A stretch of DNA of 64,000 nucleotides from Shewanella woodyi ATCC 51908 (GTDB taxonomy: Bacteria; Pseudomonadota; Gammaproteobacteria; Enterobacterales; Shewanellaceae). The position numbers were made by a program, and so were the translations under genes. Under the pieces are notes generated by a model, which worked only from the letters and a program-made list of their open reading frames with translations, made no database searches and was not told where the DNA came from. The stretch covers positions 4,030,001 to 4,094,000 of the forward strand of contig NC_010506.1 in assembly GCF_000019525.1 (NCBI RefSeq), in the 5' to 3' direction. Below are positions 1,013 to 60,106 of this stretch, in pieces; the stretch's first letter is position 1, and each line of letters starts with the position of its first letter.

Positions 1013-2479
1013 TCAAAGACGCCTATCAATATATCGCTGAAGTAATCTACGAATACTTTCAGCTTTCGTCCCATACACTAGTTGTACTCCGTTACCTACC
1101 AAGATAACCCCTTTAGCGCCTAACTGATTCAATTTATCTTTATCAATTAATTCAGGTTTCTTAACACTCATTCGCAAACGGGTCAGACAAGCACTCAATT
1201 CAAGGATGTTTTTCCTCCCTCCTAACGCGCGCACTATACTAGGGATATCCGCTTTCATCCCATCAGTATGAACCACTCTTCCAGGTGTCTTAAGATCAAA
1301 AAATAATATCGACCCTCTAAAGATTAGGTAATAAAGCACACCGGTTATGGGGCCCAATATCAGGAACCATTCAGCTCTCTGAGCGTTTCCGAGTAAAAGA
1401 GTAAAATCCACAACTCCATGGGAAAAAACGATACTATGATGAATATCCAATAAGATACATACCCAGTAGGCTAATCCAGTTAGCAGCGCATGTATTAAAA
1501 ACAGTAAAGGCGCCACAAAAAGAAAAGCAAACTCAATGGGCTCAGTCACCCCTGTCAGCCAACAAGCTGTGGCGGCTGAGATCATGATCCCCGCCACTCG
1601 ATTTCTTTGATCTTTATCAGCGCAGCGCCATATGGCTAATGCAGCGGCAGGCAGGCCCCACATCTTAATAAGATACCCTCCCGCTAAATTACCTGCCAAT
1701 GGGTCGCCAGCTAAATAACGAGCAACCTCGCCTCTTACGACCTCACCATCTCTAAAGTATTGACCAAATTCTAGGTAAAAAGGAGCATTCCAAATATGGT
1801 GTAAGCCCAAAGGAATAAGCAGACGCTCAACCGCACCATAGAGTGCAAATGCTTCTGCAGGCTTTTGATAAACTACCCAGTTTGATAACCTCTCAATCCA
1901 AGCCGACATAGATGGCCATATCAGGATAAACAGATAAGCAAGCAAGATACAAAGAGGGATCATTAATAGCGGGGCACTTCGTCGACCTTCAAAAAATGAG
2001 AACACTACAGGGAGGCGTAAGCGCTCACTCTGTGACACGGCAAGGCAAGTGATAGCTCCCACTAACATGCCGCCCGCTATTCCTGTATCTATGGTTTCAA
2101 CTCCCCACAACGCTCTGGTTTGCAGGTGATATATATCCGCCAATGCCGCCATGCTAGACAGATATACACCAAAGCCAAAAACCGCACTGAATGCGGCAAT
2201 ACCTTGATCCCGACAAAATCCAATAGCAACAGCCACAGCAAATAGCATCGGCATCATACTAAAGATAAGGTTACCGACGGTCAGCATAATGACATTAACA
2301 ATATCAGGAATAAAAGGCAGCGGACTCTTCGCTAAACCAAGCATCACTCCAGCTGCCGGCAAGATAGCAATAGGAATAAGCAGTGCTTGGCTCAGCCTTT
2401 GAGCAAACCTAAACCAGTGCTCTTGAAGATAGGTTAAGAGGTTTCGATATCGATTTGGGTGTTCCAGATCTGTAGCCAT
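1013..2479 (-). CDS. PTS glucose-type EIICB permease
   Basis: Membrane permease of the phosphotransferase system that imports and phosphorylates a hexose, most likely glucose. The 488 residues match PtsG-type EIICB proteins (E. coli PtsG is about 477). The EIIC part has about ten hydrophobic segments and the glucose-type GLHHIWNAPF motif near residue 225. The C-terminal EIIB domain carries the phosphorylated cysteine C431 in ACLTRLR. No EIIA domain is fused, so a separate EIIA-Glc (Crr) would be needed. The ATG at 2479 gives a 46-bp overlap with yqcA in another frame; no closer start codon is visible. Glucose specificity is inferred from motif similarity only. Confidence 0.82.
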   Translation of the reverse strand: MATDLEHPNRYRNLLTYLQEHWFRFAQRLSQALLIPIAILPAAGVMLGLAKSPLPFIPDIVNVIMLTVGNLIFSMMPMLFAVAVAIGFCRDQGIAAFSAVFGFGVYLSSMAALADIYHLQTRALWGVETIDTGIAGGMLVGAITCLAVSQSERLRLPVVFSFFEGRRSAPLLMIPLCILLAYLFILIWPSMSAWIERLSNWVVYQKPAEAFALYGAVERLLIPLGLHHIWNAPFYLEFGQYFRDGEVVRGEVARYLAGDPLAGNLAGGYLIKMWGLPAAALAIWRCADKDQRNRVAGIMISAATACWLTGVTEPIEFAFLFVAPLLFLIHALLTGLAYWVCILLDIHHSIVFSHGVVDFTLLLGNAQRAEWFLILGPITGVLYYLIFRGSILFFDLKTPGRVVHTDGMKADIPSIVRALGGRKNILELSACLTRLRMSVKKPELIDKDKLNQLGAKGVILVGNGVQLVYGTKAESIRRLLQRYIDRRL

Positions 2480-2895
2480 GCTTTGGCACTTACCTCAGGT
2501 TCCATCGTTTCACAGGCATCAATCTTCAATAGTCGTCCAATACGATGCGCCCCCAACTCAGTTAATAACTCATCAAACTGTATTCCAGCTTGGCAGAAGG
2601 TATCGTAACTTGAGTCACCTAATGCAACGACACCGTACCTTAAATTGGGAAGGTAGGGAGCTTGGGATTTCAACATTTCAAACCAAGGAAGAATCTCATC
2701 CGGAACATCCCCTTGGCCAGTTGTAGAGCTAACAATTAATAAGGTTTCATCTTGTGGAGGAATAAAAGAGCTAAGTTCATCACTTTGAAATAATTGAACT
2801 TCCCTTCCCAACTTCTGAAGATCATCCCTTAGTGTCTCAGCCACAAATTGTGCATTCCCATACACAGTTCCAAAAATCAGATTCACTTTTCTCAT
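2434..2895 (-). CDS. yqcA: Flavodoxin-like protein YqcA
   Basis: Short-chain flavodoxin of 153 residues that should bind FMN and transfer electrons in the cytoplasm. The FMN phosphate-loop region is GTVYGNAQF near residues 9-17 (TxTGNT-like), and the SSTTGQGDVPD loop and GDSSYDTFCQAG ring-binding loop are present. It resembles both MioC and YqcA. Its place downstream of truC and yqcC matches the E. coli yqcC-truC-yqcA group, so YqcA is preferred. Its 3' end overlaps the start of the PTS gene by 46 bp, implying coupled expression or a recent join. Confidence 0.85.
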   Translation of the reverse strand: MRKVNLIFGTVYGNAQFVAETLRDDLQKLGREVQLFQSDELSSFIPPQDETLLIVSSTTGQGDVPDEILPWFEMLKSQAPYLPNLRYGVVALGDSSYDTFCQAGIQFDELLTELGAHRIGRLLKIDACETMEPEVSAKAWLQIWNTQIDIETS

Positions 2896-3222: not shown

Positions 3223-4080
3223 CTAAACAATTAAGGTGGAGGTCTCGGAGGCTAACACCTCATCATCCCAACCAAAGGCCTCAAACAGAGTCAACCACTC
3301 CTTTTCAAGCTCAGTTTCTATCGTGATTCTTTCACCGCTTCTTGGATGATCGAATGCAAGGCTTTTTGCTATCAACCACAAACGGTTTATAGCAAAATGT
3401 TCTCTAAAAAATTTATTCTGTTTACCATCACCATGAGTCGTATCACCCACAATAGGATGTCTAAGGTGTGCCATATGGCGTCTTAATTGGTGTTTTCGGC
3501 CCGTGTGTGGAATCAGCTTGACCATAGCGTATCGGCTAGTTGCATATCGCCCAGATGGAAAAGGGATCTCGGTATTAAGCAGAGGCTGATAACTTGTTAC
3601 CGCTTCTTGTGCCGCTTTATTGGGGTCCACATCTTTATCACCATGATCATCAAGCTCGACCTTAAGGGCATAATCTAAAGTGTCAGCCTCATGCATATTT
3701 CCTCTGACAATGGCCAAATATTGTTTTTCTACCGTTTTAGCCGAAAACTGCTCACACAGGTTATTTGCCATCTCACTGCTTTTTGCGAATAGCAAAATAC
3801 CTGACGTAGGTCTATCTAAACGGTGAACAGGAAAAACATGACACCCCACTTTATCGCGAGTCATCTGCATTGCAAAAAAGCGCTCACGCCGCGCAAGATA
3901 AGATCTGTGCACCAATAACCCAGCAGGCTTATGGATCACAACAATATCGTCATCTTCAAATAGTATCTCTATCTCAGGTGCTGTTTCATCATGAAGCTCT
4001 GCTTCATTAACACCAGCTTCGATCTCTTTATTAGCAGAGGAGTCTACAGACTTCTCATCAAACTGATTATCATTGTTCAC
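3223..4080 (-). CDS. truC: tRNA pseudouridine(65) synthase TruC
   Basis: RluA-family pseudouridine synthase that modifies uridine 65 of certain tRNAs. The catalytic aspartate lies in the HRLDRPTSGILLF motif near residue 129, and the core fold (IHKPAGLLVH, then TGRKHQLRRHMAH) is intact. At 285 residues it is slightly longer than E. coli TruC because of an acidic N-terminal extension of about 35 residues, where an internal start is possible. It overlaps yqcC by 11 bp upstream, which indicates one transcript, and yqcA lies 327 bp downstream. This is the conserved yqcC-truC-yqcA grouping. Confidence 0.92.
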   Translation of the reverse strand: MNNDNQFDEKSVDSSANKEIEAGVNEAELHDETAPEIEILFEDDDIVVIHKPAGLLVHRSYLARRERFFAMQMTRDKVGCHVFPVHRLDRPTSGILLFAKSSEMANNLCEQFSAKTVEKQYLAIVRGNMHEADTLDYALKVELDDHGDKDVDPNKAAQEAVTSYQPLLNTEIPFPSGRYATSRYAMVKLIPHTGRKHQLRRHMAHLRHPIVGDTTHGDGKQNKFFREHFAINRLWLIAKSLAFDHPRSGERITIETELEKEWLTLFEAFGWDDEVLASETSTLIV

Positions 4081-4387
4081 TTAGCATTCTATCCAATTCA
4101 TCGAAAATATTAATTAAGCCATGCAAATCAGGCTGATGATTCCAAACATGGTGTGCCATCGGGGCAATGGCTATATTTGAAGGAAGTGCATTCTGAGAGT
4201 TTATTAATTGCTCCATTTTAGGAATAAATATAAATTGGACCCAGTTTTCAAATGGCATGACATCGCAACTAAAGGGCGATGTATTAGCCATAGCCTCAGT
4301 AGAAGGTGGGACGCTTGACCATAAGCCATGAACCTTTAGCTCTGTTTCTAGCTGATGGAGTTTTTCTGTTGTATTCGCATACAGCAT
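4070..4387 (-). CDS. yqcC: YqcC family protein (DUF446)
   Basis: Small cytoplasmic protein of unknown function. The ATG at 4387 is preferred over a GTG at 4408 because AAGGA sits at a normal distance upstream. The resulting 105 residues match the usual YqcC length. The central segment PFENWVQFIFIPKMEQLI and the following NALPSNIAIAPMAH are the family's most recognisable part. It overlaps truC by 11 bp, so translational coupling is likely. In E. coli this gene also begins the yqcC-truC-yqcA cluster next to csrB. Confidence 0.85.
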   Translation of the reverse strand: MLYANTTEKLHQLETELKVHGLWSSVPPSTEAMANTSPFSCDVMPFENWVQFIFIPKMEQLINSQNALPSNIAIAPMAHHVWNHQPDLHGLINIFDELDRMLSEQ

Positions 4388-4512
4388 GCCATTGTTCCTT
4401 TTTACCACTTATTTAGCACTCATATTTAATACACAATAATATCATCTCAACCCACTTCTCCCTATAATAGCCATTATATTAAAAAGCAGATCATCAGTGT
4501 TACGGCAGGAAA

Positions 4513-5912: not shown

Positions 5913-5930
5913 TACCATACTGCCAGATAA

Positions 5931-5961
5931 AGAAAAAGCGCGGCTCCCATGGAGTCGCGCC
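5931..5961 (-). terminator. Terminator of CsrB-type sRNA 1
   Basis: On the minus strand, stem GCGCGACTCC/GGAGCCGCGC with one mismatch is followed by TTTTTCT. It is also positioned to act on the convergent DUF3301 transcript. Confidence 0.85.
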
Positions 5962-6095
5962 CTTTATCTCTTTTGTTAAGCAATCCAGCTATTTATTGTG
6001 CTCCCTGCACCATCCATGCGTTCAATTTGCTCCTTGCCTCATCCTTGACTATTCCTTTTTCCCTGTTCAAACCCACTGTGTGAGTAAGTACTCAT

Positions 6096-6281
6096 CCATG
6101 AACTCAGCAATCCATTTACCGAGCTAGCTCAATCCATAAGCGTGTCCAGATTCATCCTTGATATCTCCCTATCAAGTCCTTTTTTCTCCATGTATCTGTT
6201 TATAATAAACAGTTACTCTTCCATGAACTCGGTTAATCCTTTACCGAGCTAGCTTATCCGTAAGCGTGTCCAAATTCATCC
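6096..6281 (-). repeat. Internal duplication within sRNA 1
   Basis: Segments 6096-6157 and 6221-6281 are near-copies about 124 bp apart. Both carry CCATGAACTC, TTACCGAGCTAGCT and AAGCGTGTCCA, with small changes. Each copy contributes several GGA hairpins to the RNA. Confidence 0.8.
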
Positions 6282-6654
6282 CTGTAGCATCCCTTCTGTA
6301 CTATCCATGTATCCTGTCTTCCAGACAGCAAACCTTCCATCCTGGATTGTTTAACTCTCCTTAGTCAGTCTAAGTACACCATCCTAGTGCACCTCATCCT
6401 TGATAGCTTCCCTCTAGTGCTTATCCTTAAGTCACTTTTGCTCATCCTAAGCAATGAATCCATTCATTCATGTATTTCCTTCTACGAGTTAAATTCTAGA
6501 GGAGTTGAGGATTAAAATGCCCCAGAGCTAAAAAATAAGATCTGCGCAAGAAGAAACCACCAACAAAAAATTAACGTAACCATCTGTTTTAAAATGAGTA
6601 AAACAACTAAGTAAGGCTTGTCCTTTGCTAACTATTTCCTATCTCTTACACTCA

Positions 6655-6672
6655 TGTGAGAGATCTCTTACG
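6655..6672. promoter_or_regulatory. GacA/UvrY-like upstream activating palindrome (sRNA 1)
   Basis: TGTGAGAGATCTCTTACG matches the known TGTAAG-N6-CTTACA Gac box layout closely. It lies about 170 bp upstream of the inferred sRNA 1 start, where such boxes normally sit. An overlapping inverted pair (TCTCTTACA at 6643-6651 against TGTGAGAGA) suggests more than one response-regulator site. Confidence 0.7.
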
Positions 6673-6730
6673 CACGTTCTAGCAGTTTGGGATAAGTGAA
6701 AAATAGTTCTAACTCCACTAACCCCCAGAT

Positions 6731-6762
6731 AAAAGAAAAGGCATACCTTTTAAGGTATGCCC
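6731..6762 (-). terminator. Terminator of CsrB/CsrC-type sRNA 2
   Basis: On the minus strand, a perfect 10-bp stem GGCATACCTT/AAGGTATGCC is followed by TTTTCTTTT. It separates the two sRNA units, so each is independently transcribed. Confidence 0.88.
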
Positions 6763-7172
6763 AATACTTTTTAGCTTCCAGCTAACTCACTGCTTCCTGC
6801 AACATCCATGAATGACACTCTCCTATATTCATCCCTGAACATCCCTCTGTTCCCTGTGCCACAAAGTTAATCTTATATAGGCACTAAATCCCTTTACCAG
6901 CAACTCCATTTTACTGTCCACCCATCATTGGGCTATCCATCAGCATCCTGCAAATCATCCCTAACTTCCTTTGAAGGAAGCTTGTATAATCAAGATTATA
7001 CAATCCATAATTCAGGTATCCTTTACCCAAACAGATTAAATCCTTTCAACCTATTTATACCAATTAGAACCTATCTAAGATCCTGTCTTCGACAAAGCTC
7101 ATCTTCCATTTGGCTTCCTGTTACGCTCCCGCGTATAGCAACTTCCTAGTCACCCGATCTCATCCTAAGATC
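6731..7172 (-). ncRNA. csrC: CsrB/CsrC-type regulatory sRNA 2
   Basis: A second CsrA-sequestering RNA directly upstream of the first, in the same direction. Read on the minus strand it has about 23 GGA triplets between about 7170 and 6780, again mostly AGGAU, GGGAUG and UGGAA, several in short stems. It ends in a strong terminator at 6731-6762. Apart from the repeated GGA units it shares little obvious sequence with sRNA 1, so it is a paralogue or csrC-like partner and not a fresh copy. The 5' end is estimated only. The csrC label is provisional. Confidence 0.8.
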
Positions 7173-7366
7173 AACAATTCAAATTCACTTTCTATGCTGA
7201 CAATGCAGCTGAACATCTGTTTTATTAACTCTAACTTAAAAAGTTATACATTGAGAGAAAGTCGACTCATAATCAAAACAACTAAAAATAGCGACAACCA
7301 CCATATCAATATAACATACTGAATAATAAAGGTTATAATCATTTGAAATAGAAAACAGTCATTATT

Positions 7367-7406
7367 TGCAATGGATCTCTTACGCCTTTGTGCGATATAT
7401 CTCACA
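7367..7406. promoter_or_regulatory. GacA/UvrY-like site region (sRNA 2)
   Basis: TGTGCG-ATATAT-CTCACA (7389-7406) is an 18-bp imperfect palindrome about 220 bp upstream of the inferred sRNA 2 start. Just beside it, GGATCTCTTACGC (7373-7385) is shared with the box upstream of sRNA 1. Together they suggest control by the same two-component regulator. Confidence 0.5.
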
Positions 7407-7502
7407 AAGGTTTTAGCAAGAACTCGGATCACATTTTTAGAAAGCCAGCTAATAAGTTAACTAAAACTTAGGTAGGAGGAGAGATAAACGAAAGAGCTTG
7501 AT

Positions 7503-7844: not shown

Positions 7845-8484
7845 TTTCATGACCGCGATAAAACAGAAGCTCGCCTTCAACTTTACCTATCGAAAGCTGC
7901 TCTAATAGGGTAAATCCATGTTGACTAAAAAGCAGAGCATGATTTTGATCGCTAGCAAAGACACCAATTCCATCAAGCTCAGGTTGTTCATCACACCAGC
8001 TTAATGCGGCCTGAACCAACTGAGCTCCTAATCCCTTGCCTTGCTCGGTTGGAGAAACAGCAATAAATTGTAAGATGCCACAATGAGGACTAGGTAAGTG
8101 CTCCAATAAAGAGGACTCTTTCTTGATTAAAGCTTGAGTTGACTGCCATCCAGTACTGATTAGCATTTTTAAACGCCAATGCCAGTATCTAGACTCTCCG
8201 AGAGGAACTTGTTGGGTCACAATACATGCTACACCTACCATTCTATCAGCATCAAATAACCCAATTAATGCCTGTTCCTGTTGCCATAATTCATTAAGCT
8301 CTTCACGTATTGCCCCTCTGAGCTTCTGCTCATACATGGACATATCACCAGCATATAAAGAATCGATAAAAAAAGGATCATCATGGTAAGCGTTATAGAG
8401 TATTGAAGCTGCAACACGCAGATCTTCAGCTGTTAAATAAACAGCTCGATACGCTTGTGATACTGCACTATCTGCTTTAGTCAT
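7837..8484 (-). CDS. GNAT family N-acetyltransferase
   Basis: A cytoplasmic acetyl-CoA-dependent acetyltransferase of 215 residues; substrate unknown. The acetyl-CoA binding motif A is visible as ILQFIAVSPTEQGKGLGAQL (about 137-156), with a Q-x-x-G-x-G/A signature, followed by the motif B region near SQHGFTLLEQ. The ATG at 8484 is preferred over the TTG one codon earlier. It is co-transcribed with the downstream DUF962 gene, which it overlaps. Confidence 0.85.
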   Translation of the reverse strand: MTKADSAVSQAYRAVYLTAEDLRVAASILYNAYHDDPFFIDSLYAGDMSMYEQKLRGAIREELNELWQQEQALIGLFDADRMVGVACIVTQQVPLGESRYWHWRLKMLISTGWQSTQALIKKESSLLEHLPSPHCGILQFIAVSPTEQGKGLGAQLVQAALSWCDEQPELDGIGVFASDQNHALLFSQHGFTLLEQLSIGKVEGELLFYRGHENE

Positions 8485-8649
8485 CAACTGGCAACCTTTG
8501 ATCTAGATCAATTAGCACCAATGTATCAACTGAAATTAACAGTGTAAATATCAATCATAAAATGCTGTTAATATAATCACTTTTATTAAAGTATGATCCA
8601 TACTAGTAGTAACTGTTAATCATAGATATACACGTATAAGGAGCAGTCA

Positions 8650-8883
8650 ATGGATACGACGCCTCAAGACCTTAACCATCTATTTGAGCAACTCGGCATA
8701 GAGAGCAGTGAAGAGAATATCGATAGGTTTATTGCAGAGTCTACGATCCCCAATAATGTACTTCTTTATGAAGCCGATTTTTGGACTGAGTCTCAAAAAA
8801 GCTTTTTAAAAGAAGCGATAGATGAAGACGCCCAATGGTCTGAACTCATCGACCATTTAGACGCCCTAATTAGAAGACAATAA
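8650..8883 (+). CDS. DUF2789 family protein
   Basis: A 77-residue acidic cytoplasmic protein with no signal or membrane segment. An AAGGAG site sits at ideal distance before the ATG. The pattern DLNHLFEQLGI near the N-terminus, ADFWTESQKSFLKEAI in the middle and the W-SELIDHLD end match DUF2789 proteins, which occur in many marine gammaproteobacteria and have no assigned function. Monocistronic; a MITE-like repeat follows directly. Confidence 0.82.
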   Translation: MDTTPQDLNHLFEQLGIESSEENIDRFIAESTIPNNVLLYEADFWTESQKSFLKEAIDEDAQWSELIDHLDALIRRQ

Positions 8884-58028: not shown

Positions 58029-58120
58029 TGGCGGAGAGGGAGGGATTCGAACCCTCGATGGGATTTAAAGCCCATACTCCCTTAGCAGGGGAGCGCCTTC
58101 GGCCACTCGGCCACCTCTCC
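58029..58120 (-). tRNA. tRNA-Ser (GCT)
   Basis: 92 nt including encoded CCA. The acceptor stem GGAGAGG pairs with CCTCTCC, the anticodon loop is CTGCTAA (anticodon GCT) in a CTCCC/GGGAG stem, and a long variable arm marks a class II tRNA. Last gene of the array in the direction of transcription; serV-like. Confidence 0.96.
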
Positions 58121-58144
58121 TAATCTTACTCATAAAATGAATAA

Positions 58145-58221
58145 TGGTGCGCGTGGGAGGATTCGAACCTCCGACCGCCTGGTTCGTAGCCAGGTACTCT
58201 ATCCAGCTGAGCTACACGCGC
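58145..58221 (-). tRNA. tRNA-Arg (ACG)
   Basis: 77 nt with encoded CCA. Anticodon loop CTACGAA (ACG, normally changed to ICG) between CCTGG/CCAGG, acceptor stem of the GCGCGTG/CACGCGC type. Confidence 0.96.
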
Positions 58222-58289
58222 AAATCTATCTTCTGCTTATCGATAAAGATAAGCCTATTTCGGGTTAACGATAAACACGAAACAAAATA

Positions 58290-58366
58290 TGGTGCGGATG
58301 GGAGGATTCGAACCTCCGACCGCCTGGTTCGTAGCCAGGTACTCTATCCAGCTGAGCTACATCCGC
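58290..58366 (-). tRNA. tRNA-Arg (ACG)
   Basis: 77 nt with encoded CCA, anticodon ACG in loop CTACGAA. Acceptor stem of the GCGGATG/CATCCGC type; the body is otherwise the same as the other Arg copies. Confidence 0.96.
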
Positions 58367-58395
58367 ACAAGTTTACAACCTTTATTTAGTAAGTA

Positions 58396-58472
58396 TGGTG
58401 CGCGTGGGAGGATTCGAACCTCCGACCGCCTGGTTCGTAGCCAGGTACTCTATCCAGCTGAGCTACACGCGC
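58396..58472 (-). tRNA. tRNA-Arg (ACG)
   Basis: 77 nt with encoded CCA, anticodon ACG in loop CTACGAA, acceptor stem of the GCGCGTG/CACGCGC type. Confidence 0.96.
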
Positions 58473-58546
58473 AAATCTCTTACTTGACTGAAGTTAACAC
58501 TAGAAACAATCCAGTGTATGACTCTCGTCATTTTCTATTTTTAGTA

Positions 58547-58623
58547 TGGTGCGGATGGGAGGATTCGAACCTCCGACCGCCTGGTTCGTAGCCAGGTACT
58601 CTATCCAGCTGAGCTACATCCGC
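58547..58623 (-). tRNA. tRNA-Arg (ACG)
   Basis: 77 nt with encoded CCA, anticodon ACG, acceptor stem of the GCGGATG/CATCCGC type. First gene of the downstream Arg(x4)-Ser block, just after the internal terminator. Confidence 0.96.
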
Positions 58624-58690
58624 ATCGAAAACTAAAAATATCTTGCCCAAATCGCATTATAAAACCATTTAGCTTTATAACCTAGGGCGA

Positions 58691-58722
58691 CAAAAAAACC
58701 CGCTGATGATATCAACGGGCTT
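58691..58722 (-). terminator. Internal terminator within the tRNA array
   Basis: On the minus strand AAGCCCGTTGAT pairs with ATCAGCGGGTT (one G-T pair), followed by TTTTTTT. It sits right after Ser copy 2, matching the terminator after Ser copy 1; the following ATTGATGG spacing is also the same, evidence of block duplication. Confidence 0.85.
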
Positions 58723-58728
58723 GATTGA

Positions 58729-58820
58729 TGGCGGAGAGGGAGGGATTCGAACCCTCGATGGGATTTAAAGCCCATACTCCCTTAGCAGGGGAGCGCCTTC
58801 GGCCACTCGGCCACCTCTCC
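58729..58820 (-). tRNA. tRNA-Ser (GCT)
   Basis: 92 nt with encoded CCA and anticodon GCT. Appears identical to the copies at 58029 and 59313. Closes the upstream Arg(x4)-Ser block. Confidence 0.96.
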
Positions 58821-58848
58821 TAATCTCGTCTTATTCAATAAAGAATAA

Positions 58849-58925
58849 TGGTGCGCGTGGGAGGATTCGAACCTCCGACCGCCTGGTTCGTAGCCAGGTA
58901 CTCTATCCAGCTGAGCTACACGCGC
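58849..58925 (-). tRNA. tRNA-Arg (ACG)
   Basis: 77 nt with encoded CCA, anticodon ACG, acceptor stem of the GCGCGTG/CACGCGC type. The spacer to the following Ser resembles the one between 58145 and 58120. Confidence 0.96.
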
Positions 58926-58993
58926 AATTTACTTTTACTTATCAATAAAGATAAGAAGGCTCCAAGTTAACACTCAACTCGAAACAAAAATTA

Positions 58994-59070
58994 TGGTGCG
59001 GATGGGAGGATTCGAACCTCCGACCGCCTGGTTCGTAGCCAGGTACTCTATCCAGCTGAGCTACATCCGC
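58994..59070 (-). tRNA. tRNA-Arg (ACG)
   Basis: 77 nt with encoded CCA, anticodon ACG, acceptor stem of the GCGGATG/CATCCGC type. The spacer to its neighbour contains CTTATC.ATAAAGATAAG, also found in the matching spacer of the other block (58222-58289). Confidence 0.96.
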
Positions 59071-59104
59071 ACATATAAAACATCACATGAACATTAATAT
59101 TGAA

Positions 59105-59181
59105 TGGTGCGGATGGGAGGATTCGAACCTCCGACCGCCTGGTTCGTAGCCAGGTACTCTATCCAGCTGAGCTACATCCGC
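59105..59181 (-). tRNA. tRNA-Arg (ACG)
   Basis: 77 nt with encoded CCA, anticodon ACG, acceptor stem of the GCGGATG/CATCCGC type. Confidence 0.96.
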
Positions 59182-59214
59182 AACGCGTTTCAATATATCT
59201 GTTCTCTTACAAAA

Positions 59215-59291
59215 TGGTGCGGATGGGAGGATTCGAACCTCCGACCGCCTGGTTCGTAGCCAGGTACTCTATCCAGCTGAGCTACATCCGC
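59215..59291 (-). tRNA. tRNA-Arg (ACG)
   Basis: 77 nt with encoded CCA, anticodon ACG, acceptor stem of the GCGGATG/CATCCGC type. Second gene of the array after the leading Ser. Confidence 0.96.
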
Positions 59292-59310
59292 ATCGTATTT
59301 GTAAGTAAGA

Positions 59311-59404
<94 letters not shown>

Positions 59405-59908: not shown

Positions 59909-60106
59909 CTAAAAATTGCCGCCTTCTGAAGAGTTCCCAGCTTTCTCAGACTGAATACGTTGATAAATCTCTTCACGATGTACCGAAACTTCTTTAGGCG
60001 CATTAACACCTATACGCACTTGATTACCCTTGACGCCTAATACGGTGACAGTTACTTCATCACCAATCATCAGTGTTTCACCAACACGACGAGTCAATAT
60101 CAGCAT
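59909..60106 (-). CDS. csrA: Carbon storage regulator CsrA
   Basis: RNA-binding dimer that recognises GGA in mRNA leaders and controls translation and stability of carbon, motility and biofilm genes. The 65 residues are near the usual 61-65. The first strand [10 protein letters not shown] includes L4, R6 and R7, and the C-terminal helix region [12 protein letters not shown] carries R44, the key RNA contacts. The tail ([13 protein letters not shown]) is variable, as expected. Neighbours alaS upstream and serV/argV-type tRNAs downstream match E. coli. Its RNA antagonists are encoded at 5.9-7.2 kb in this window. Confidence 0.98.

Follow-up and report, generated by a model that had tools for sequence, protein, structure and literature searches.

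In Shewanella oneidensis, AGGA motifs and UvrY boxes had led to the prediction of csrB1 and csrB2, and PMC3171408 reports that both RNAs were seen by northern blot and depend on BarA/UvrY, the csrB signal being down more than 100-fold in uvrY and barA mutants. According to the same source, the predicted lengths of the two RNAs are 420 and 421 nt, the northern sizes are ~450 for csrB1 and 700, 600 and 450 for csrB2, and csrB1 is expressed 3-10 times less than the other copy. The csrB1/csrB2 double mutant grows like the uvrY mutant (PMC3171408; PMC11045786); its siderophore synthesis is restored by either RNA in trans, CsrB2 being the stronger, and titration of CsrA by these RNAs is supported by genetics (PMC11045786). 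A transposase stands between csrB1 and csrB2 in strain MR-1, whereas the two are adjacent in other species such as S. putrefaciens CN-32, and a csrC of S. oneidensis, tested between mutM and SO_4727, was found to be UvrY-independent (PMC3171408).

Several partly redundant sponges per genome are likewise described for Vibrio (CsrB1-4 or CsrB/C/D), Pseudomonas (RsmX/Y/Z) and Pseudoalteromonas (Pf1-3) (PMC11882849, PMC6262261); the Shewanella copies stand side by side. CsrB of Escherichia coli carries 22 GGA triplets (PMC11882849), and PMC4682653 places the UvrY repeat of its gene at -183/-182, with a partly conserved half-site, TGTAGGAGA, 5 bp further on. No paper containing both 'Shewanella woodyi' and 'csrB' was found in the open-licence literature.

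Here we analyzed a 64,000-nt stretch of the S. woodyi ATCC 51908 genome, positions 4030001-4094000 on its single contig (hereafter the window). We are highly confident that its positions 5913-7502 hold a pair of separately transcribed CsrB-type small RNAs, the counterparts of S. oneidensis csrB1 and csrB2. Because such pairs have already been described in other Shewanella, the pair is ordinary as a find; the new information is modest and lies in the comparative history of the units.

Results

Two GGA-rich units in a locus free of recognised genes

The locus had been described as a gene-free stretch of 1.6 kb, which agrees with its measured 1590 bp (Table 1), and the three ORFs tested inside it (73, 70, and 62 aa) gave no Pfam match at E <= 0.01; three more frames overlap the left edge. 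Pfam matches and the E. coli locus show that the gene order beside the units, yqcC-truC-yqcA, is the one beside E. coli csrB, on the same side, so the claimed synteny stands. In contrast to E. coli, which has one csrB at this place, S. woodyi has two units, and genes for DUF3549 and DUF3301 proteins lie between them and yqcC. Of the 78 loci that encode a relative of the DUF3549 protein, in a listing that may omit the window's own record, 77 belong to Shewanella or Parashewanella; among the named organisms S. nanhaiensis comes closest (96% identity).

Table 1 Features of the csrB locus and related genes of S. woodyi. Positions are those of the window, except that C1 positions refer to the genome and L150 positions to a fetched locus.
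Feature	Position	Strand	Remarks
Stretch free of recognised genes	5913-7502		1590 bp, between DUF3301 stop (5912) and Mpo1-like gene (7503)
Unit A (upstream unit), ~490 nt, 23 GGA	6731..7221	-	GGA shuffles, RF00018 match, fold; start predicted from -10-like block
UvrY-type inverted repeat of unit A, TGTGAGATATATCGCACA	7389..7406	-	1 mismatch to TGTRAGN6CTYACA
Half-site of unit A, CGTAAGAGA	7376-7384	-	4-nt spacing to repeat, as in unit B
Putative -10-like TAGAGT of unit A	7228..7233	-	analogy with unit B; weak conservation of the block in 57 upstream units
Intrinsic terminator of unit A	6731..6762	-	10-bp stem and T-run
Unit B (downstream unit), ~555 nt, 35 GGA	5931..6486	-	GGA shuffles, RF00018 match, fold, GGA conservation; start predicted
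UvrY-type inverted repeat of unit B, CGTAAGAGATCTCTCACA	6655..6672	-	1 mismatch to TGTRAGN6CTYACA
Half-site of unit B, TGTAAGAGA	6642-6650	-	4 bases past repeat
Putative -10-like TAGAAT of unit B	6493..6498	-	CTCTAAAATTTAACTCGTA block conserved in 10 clade sequences, window included
Internal duplicate in unit B, 5' copy	6214..6284	-	counterpart of 6089-6160
Internal duplicate in unit B, 3' copy	6089..6160	-	copy of 6214-6284, offset 124-125 nt; two blocks with 83% and 90% identity
Intrinsic terminator of unit B	5930..5961	-	11-bp stem with one mismatch and T-run
yqcC (DUF446)	4070..4408	-	Pfam PF04287
Pseudouridine synthase, truC by position	3223-4080		after yqcC; Pfam PF00849
Flavodoxin, yqcA by position	2434-2895		after truC; PF00258
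csrA, 65 aa, presumed target	59909..60106	-	PF02599, 93.2 bits; same window
BarA	C1:4111966-4114716		1364 bits, over curated cut-off
UvrY	C1:2639143-2639790		412.6 bits, over curated cut-off; directly upstream of uvrC
csrC candidate	C1:68043-68296; L150:8044-8297	-	RF00084, 22.9 bits

On the minus strand we counted 23 GGA triplets in 7172-6731 and 35 in 6480-5931, close to the ~23 and ~34 announced in the preliminary description, and neither count was reached in 1000 dinucleotide shuffles, whose means were 14.4 and 21.0. No other 450-nt stretch of the window is as dense in GGA as the two units (31 and 24 GGA); the runner-up on the minus strand holds 13 and the densest plus-strand stretch 14, and over 5919-7502 the plus strand counts 10 GGA only. 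Each unit ends, as had been noted, in a terminator hairpin with a T-run of its own, and a crude scan gave a weaker 7-bp hairpin at ~7304-7288, upstream of units A and B. Both fold more stably than 100 shuffles each, with z = -3.75 for unit A and -4.41 for unit B. As to the further claim that many GGA triplets sit in stem-loops, 8/23 lie in hairpin loops in unit A, a fraction reached by 0/100 shuffles; in unit B it is 7/35, which 13/100 shuffles reach, so that the excess there is not significant.

Conservation was measured in unit B, over all but the last 60 nt, among 5 of 10 clade members chosen for like length; the other five differ in repeat number. In these 5 species 27/33 GGA triplets are invariant throughout, compared with 20% of the 332 triplets not touching GGA, and invariant positions make up 86% of the GGA bases versus 47% of the others. 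Changes on both sides that keep the pair occur at 16/121 of the predicted pairs. The excess of GGA over chance that marks CsrB RNAs is found in both units, and conservation of the triplets is seen in unit B.

In a covariance search, the Rfam CsrB model (RF00018) matched both units from its first to its last position, 5926-6264 in unit B and 6729-7042 in unit A, which supports the CsrB-type identity proposed earlier. The E-values are significant (1.6e-8 for unit B and 5.3e-6 for unit A in a 2 kb search; 1.1e-8 and 3.7e-6 genome-wide), but the scores, 38.4 and 30.0 bits, fall short of the 71 bits of the gathering score. Across the genus, 112/117 genomes have RF00018 matches at E <= 1 and yet only 5/117 pass that score, so this threshold seems ill-suited to Shewanella. 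The stricter filters of the genus search returned only the downstream unit from S. woodyi itself, whereas the single-genome search returned both; among 14 control genomes, 8 had some match at E <= 10 and only E. coli exceeded the cut-off. Besides its own terminator, each unit has the conserved 3' core of the Rfam consensus, GCAGGGAGCA...TAGCTGGATTGCT, exact in unit B, as in E. coli CsrB, and diverged in unit A. CsrC (RF00084) is not the best family for either unit, matching 6322-6475 only, at 12.1 bits. None of RsmX, RsmY, or RsmZ was among the matches listed over the units at E <= 10, a listing that omits three weaker overlapping matches of the same clan.

Upstream boxes, predicted transcript starts and the Csr pathway

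Each unit lies behind a UvrY-type inverted repeat, as do the two nearby csrB RNAs of S. oneidensis MR-1 and S. putrefaciens CN-32 (PMC3171408). The CTCTAAAATTTAACTCGTA block is found ~170 nt downstream of the repeat start in near relatives, and, as we take its TAGAAT to be the -10 element, transcription of unit B probably starts near 6486 and, by analogy, that of unit A near 7221. The right end of 7172 that had been given for the pair would consequently trim ~50 nt from unit A. The centre of the repeat, which has one mismatch in each unit, would then lie ~177 nt before the start, near the position of about -180 known for UvrY/GacA boxes and comparable to the -183/-182 of E. coli (PMC4682653); the half-site follows after 4 nt instead of 5. 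With these starts, the S. woodyi RNAs would measure ~490 and 555 nt, as opposed to the 420 and 421 predicted in S. oneidensis (PMC3171408). The promoter stretches of units A and B align weakly above shuffles (2/300 reach the score).

The csrB regions of 79 loci (defined below) contain 87 exact and 39 one-mismatch UvrY boxes versus none for the reversed pattern, counts that are not independent because the sequences are related. As stand-alone evidence the box was rejected: genome-wide, 34 places match with at most one mismatch compared with 28 for the reversed pattern, and 18/100 shuffles of the window contain at least two. We inspected 15 of the 34 places (L118-L132); the exact box of L118 has no GGA-rich stretch, and L120 and L123 reach 11 GGA. 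Another exact UvrY-type box, at ~C1:4748829 (L119), has 14 GGA in the 300 nt behind it, and this stretch appears to belong to a repetitive element, in which two short frames are nearly identical.

CsrA, BarA, and UvrY are all encoded in the same genome (Table 1). A second, divergent CsrA-like protein of 58 aa (C1:1825628-1825801, minus strand; locus L151:5626-5802) scores 29.7 bits to PF02599 with a cut-off of 27, and matches to it at E <= 0.001 occur in 15/60 genus genomes, its own included. We also observed an array of eleven tRNA genes close to csrA, at 58032-59404 on the minus strand of the window.

History of the two units in the genus

The preliminary description saw no similarity between the units beyond the GGA motif. 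This view had to be abandoned, since their bodies align with a score of 238, compared with a highest score of 183.5 among 500 shuffles in which all GGA segments are preserved (230 versus 132 in 300 dinucleotide shuffles), and the excess persists without the 3' ends (190.5 versus 153.5). Among the stretches in common are the box region (73% over 44 nt), two blocks from the 5' half (77% over 22 nt and 80% over 30 nt), and 20 nt near the 3' end (90%).

For the comparison across species we assembled 78 loci anchored on DUF3549 together with the window, 79 in all. Counting by box and GGA density with hand curation gave two units in 57, one in 17, and 5 cut by contig ends; a stricter rule gave two in 45, one in 26, and none in 8. 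Curation assigned one unit to L043 and L045, which have a spurious two-mismatch box, and two units to L089 and L093; the totals were the same before and after these changes. The loci without units (L050, L077, L094, L105, and L108) end at a contig end, and L083 touches one too. Two other ways of counting were discarded, a two-state segmentation on GGA that merges neighboring units and a 3'-core marker that misses units.

We built a tree from 130 units (57 upstream, 57 downstream, and 16 single), with a midpoint root and no outgroup and with Vibrio L117 left out; six units shortened in extraction cover 225-334 nt only. Most upstream units group with upstream ones and most downstream units with downstream ones, units A and B of the window included, and 15/16 single units fall among the downstream ones, L115 being in a mixed group. 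Exceptions are the upstream units of L088, L089, and L112, placed inside the downstream half, and the upstream units of L097, L099, L100, and L102, which attach to it unsupported (0.04). Within the limits of its midpoint root and these exceptions, the tree fits the earlier suggestion of an old duplication followed by divergence. The simplest reading would be one old duplication and then repeated loss of the upstream copy (in S. hanedai, S. benthica KT99, S. colwelliana, and others), so that the pair looks old and the downstream copy looks to be the one usually kept in single-unit species. S. atlantica and S. canadensis retain the upstream box in exact form, followed by only 5-6 GGA.

The downstream units also vary internally. 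Compared with csrB1 and csrB2 of S. oneidensis and CN-32, unit B stands out by its 125-nt internal duplication and its 35 GGA; this one duplication is absent from the output of Tandem Repeats Finder. That program (periods of at least 30) detected arrays in 5/130 units (L043, L044, L045, L046, and L047), all downstream-type and all from the window's own clade: 120 bp x 3.7 in S. canadensis, 123 x 1.9 in an uncultured isolate, 130 x 2.8-3.1 in a MAG, 97 x 3.8 in S. benthica DSM 8812, and 81 x 5.8 in Shewanella sp. UCD-KL12. The repeat-bearing units hold 33 to 56 GGA, with up to 56 in the repeat-rich L046 and L047; S. benthica DSM 8812 combines an upstream unit of 14 GGA with an expanded downstream unit of 55, and the single units of S. 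hanedai and S. benthica KT99 have 37 and 32. One further locus (L184, G043:C1:1274500-1281500) has three csrB units in tandem, each behind an exact UvrY box of its own; of these, the two closest to DUF3301 share 95.6% identity over 385 nt. These sequences suggest that csrB sponges grow and shrink by tandem duplication. Absence of the upstream unit and expansion of the downstream one are found in one and the same clade, and this would fit compensation, although S. benthica DSM 8812 has a short upstream unit next to its expanded downstream unit. Among the matches listed from the open-licence literature, no title dealt with repeat expansion inside csrB.

A third Csr-like RNA at the csrC position

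Elsewhere in the S. woodyi genome, RF00018 matched C1:68044-68280 on the minus strand with 21.7 bits, and RF00084 matched nearly the same segment in a search of 1.4 kb, with E = 1.7e-4 and a score (Table 1) below the gathering score of 61. This csrC candidate is flanked by a GTPase gene (engB by position) and a cytochrome c gene on one side and by methyltransferase-yihI-hemN on the other, with polA further off; in E. coli, csrC is flanked by yihA and yihI-hemN and shares the strand of yihI, and the candidate is likewise on the yihI strand. BLASTN matches to it occur in 108/114 genus genomes, the neighbors having been checked in the fetched loci. In a search of 40 genomes with RF00084, the gathering score was passed in 0/40; of the 30 loci fetched, 11 are at the csrC position and 19 elsewhere, and for S. 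woodyi this search listed three weaker terminator-end matches instead of the candidate.

Aligning 11 copies (all 12 except L166) revealed invariant stems that carry GGA in the loop, and 10/48 pairs show compensatory change. No UvrY box with at most one mismatch was found in the 12 spacers of the candidate; a 2-mismatch box is present in two. A promoter-like and leader-like block, TTGACA ... CCCGTACCGAGATGAACCCA, between the cytochrome c gene and the candidate (L150 ~8310-8737) is kept in most of the 12 spacers. The candidate is possibly the true csrC of the genus. Judging by the stated neighbors, the mutM-SO_4727 locus of PMC3171408 seems to be a different place, and the work on S. oneidensis may then have tested the wrong locus as csrC.

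Discussion

The S. woodyi pair is almost certainly the csrB pair that has been predicted, northern-blotted, and deleted in S. oneidensis and that is adjacent in S. putrefaciens. At the S. woodyi locus itself we observed the sequence, the structure potential, the conservation, the synteny, and the presence of csrA, barA, and uvrY; by analogy with the work on S. oneidensis, the two units would also be transcribed, depend on UvrY, and antagonize CsrA. Phosphorylated UvrY, the partner of BarA, would bind the inverted repeat of each unit and switch on its transcription. Each RNA would offer ~20-35 GGA sites, some of which would lie in loops or be single-stranded, and would bind several CsrA dimers, a capture that would free the mRNA targets of CsrA.

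A GGA-rich but unrelated stretch, repetitive or translated, could in principle mimic CsrB, and the internal duplication in unit B and the plus-strand frames of 73 and 70 aa that overlap unit A might be read in this way. This explanation is largely refuted, and we give it next to no weight: the three frames tested have no Pfam match, the GGA triplets are conserved far above the rest, and most of the 79 loci have GGA-rich units, 3' cores, and terminators at this same position. It is also hardly credible that units A and B stem from one recent duplication instead of being old paralogues. The identities of the common box region and 3' piece, the nearly identical extra copy in G043, and a tree lacking an outgroup would allow it, but the two units of the window group with the upstream and the downstream units of other species, respectively, and nearly all single units sit among the downstream ones.

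More deserving of attention, though still improbable, is the proposal that the downstream unit is the sole working CsrA sponge and that the upstream unit is a decaying copy heading to loss, as seemingly in sister species. S. hanedai with its single unit and the boxes with few GGA left in S. atlantica and S. canadensis speak for it, as do the lower Rfam score and fewer GGA of unit A and perhaps the asymmetry reported for S. oneidensis, where csrB1 is the less expressed (PMC3171408) and CsrB2 the more effective (PMC11045786). However, unit A retains its box, terminator, GGA excess, and strong fold, the two units occur together in most of the hand-curated loci, and either RNA suffices to restore siderophore synthesis in S. 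oneidensis (PMC11045786). We retain the reading of two separately transcribed CsrB-type RNAs.

It is a genuine but tentative possibility, which we lean slightly against, that CsrA-sponge capacity in Shewanella is a tunable dial. It would be set by nested tandem duplication, with 1-3 csrB units per locus and 81-130 bp GGA repeats in the downstream unit (up to 5.8 copies and 56 GGA), and by a third conserved sponge at the csrC position that, having no recognisable UvrY box, would add a BarA/UvrY-independent input.

In summary, the S. woodyi pair adds one more species in which a known global regulator is confirmed. Comparison across the genus yields a titrating RNA that varies naturally in length and copy number, and selection on sponge capacity, that is, on the number of sites, is therefore directly testable.
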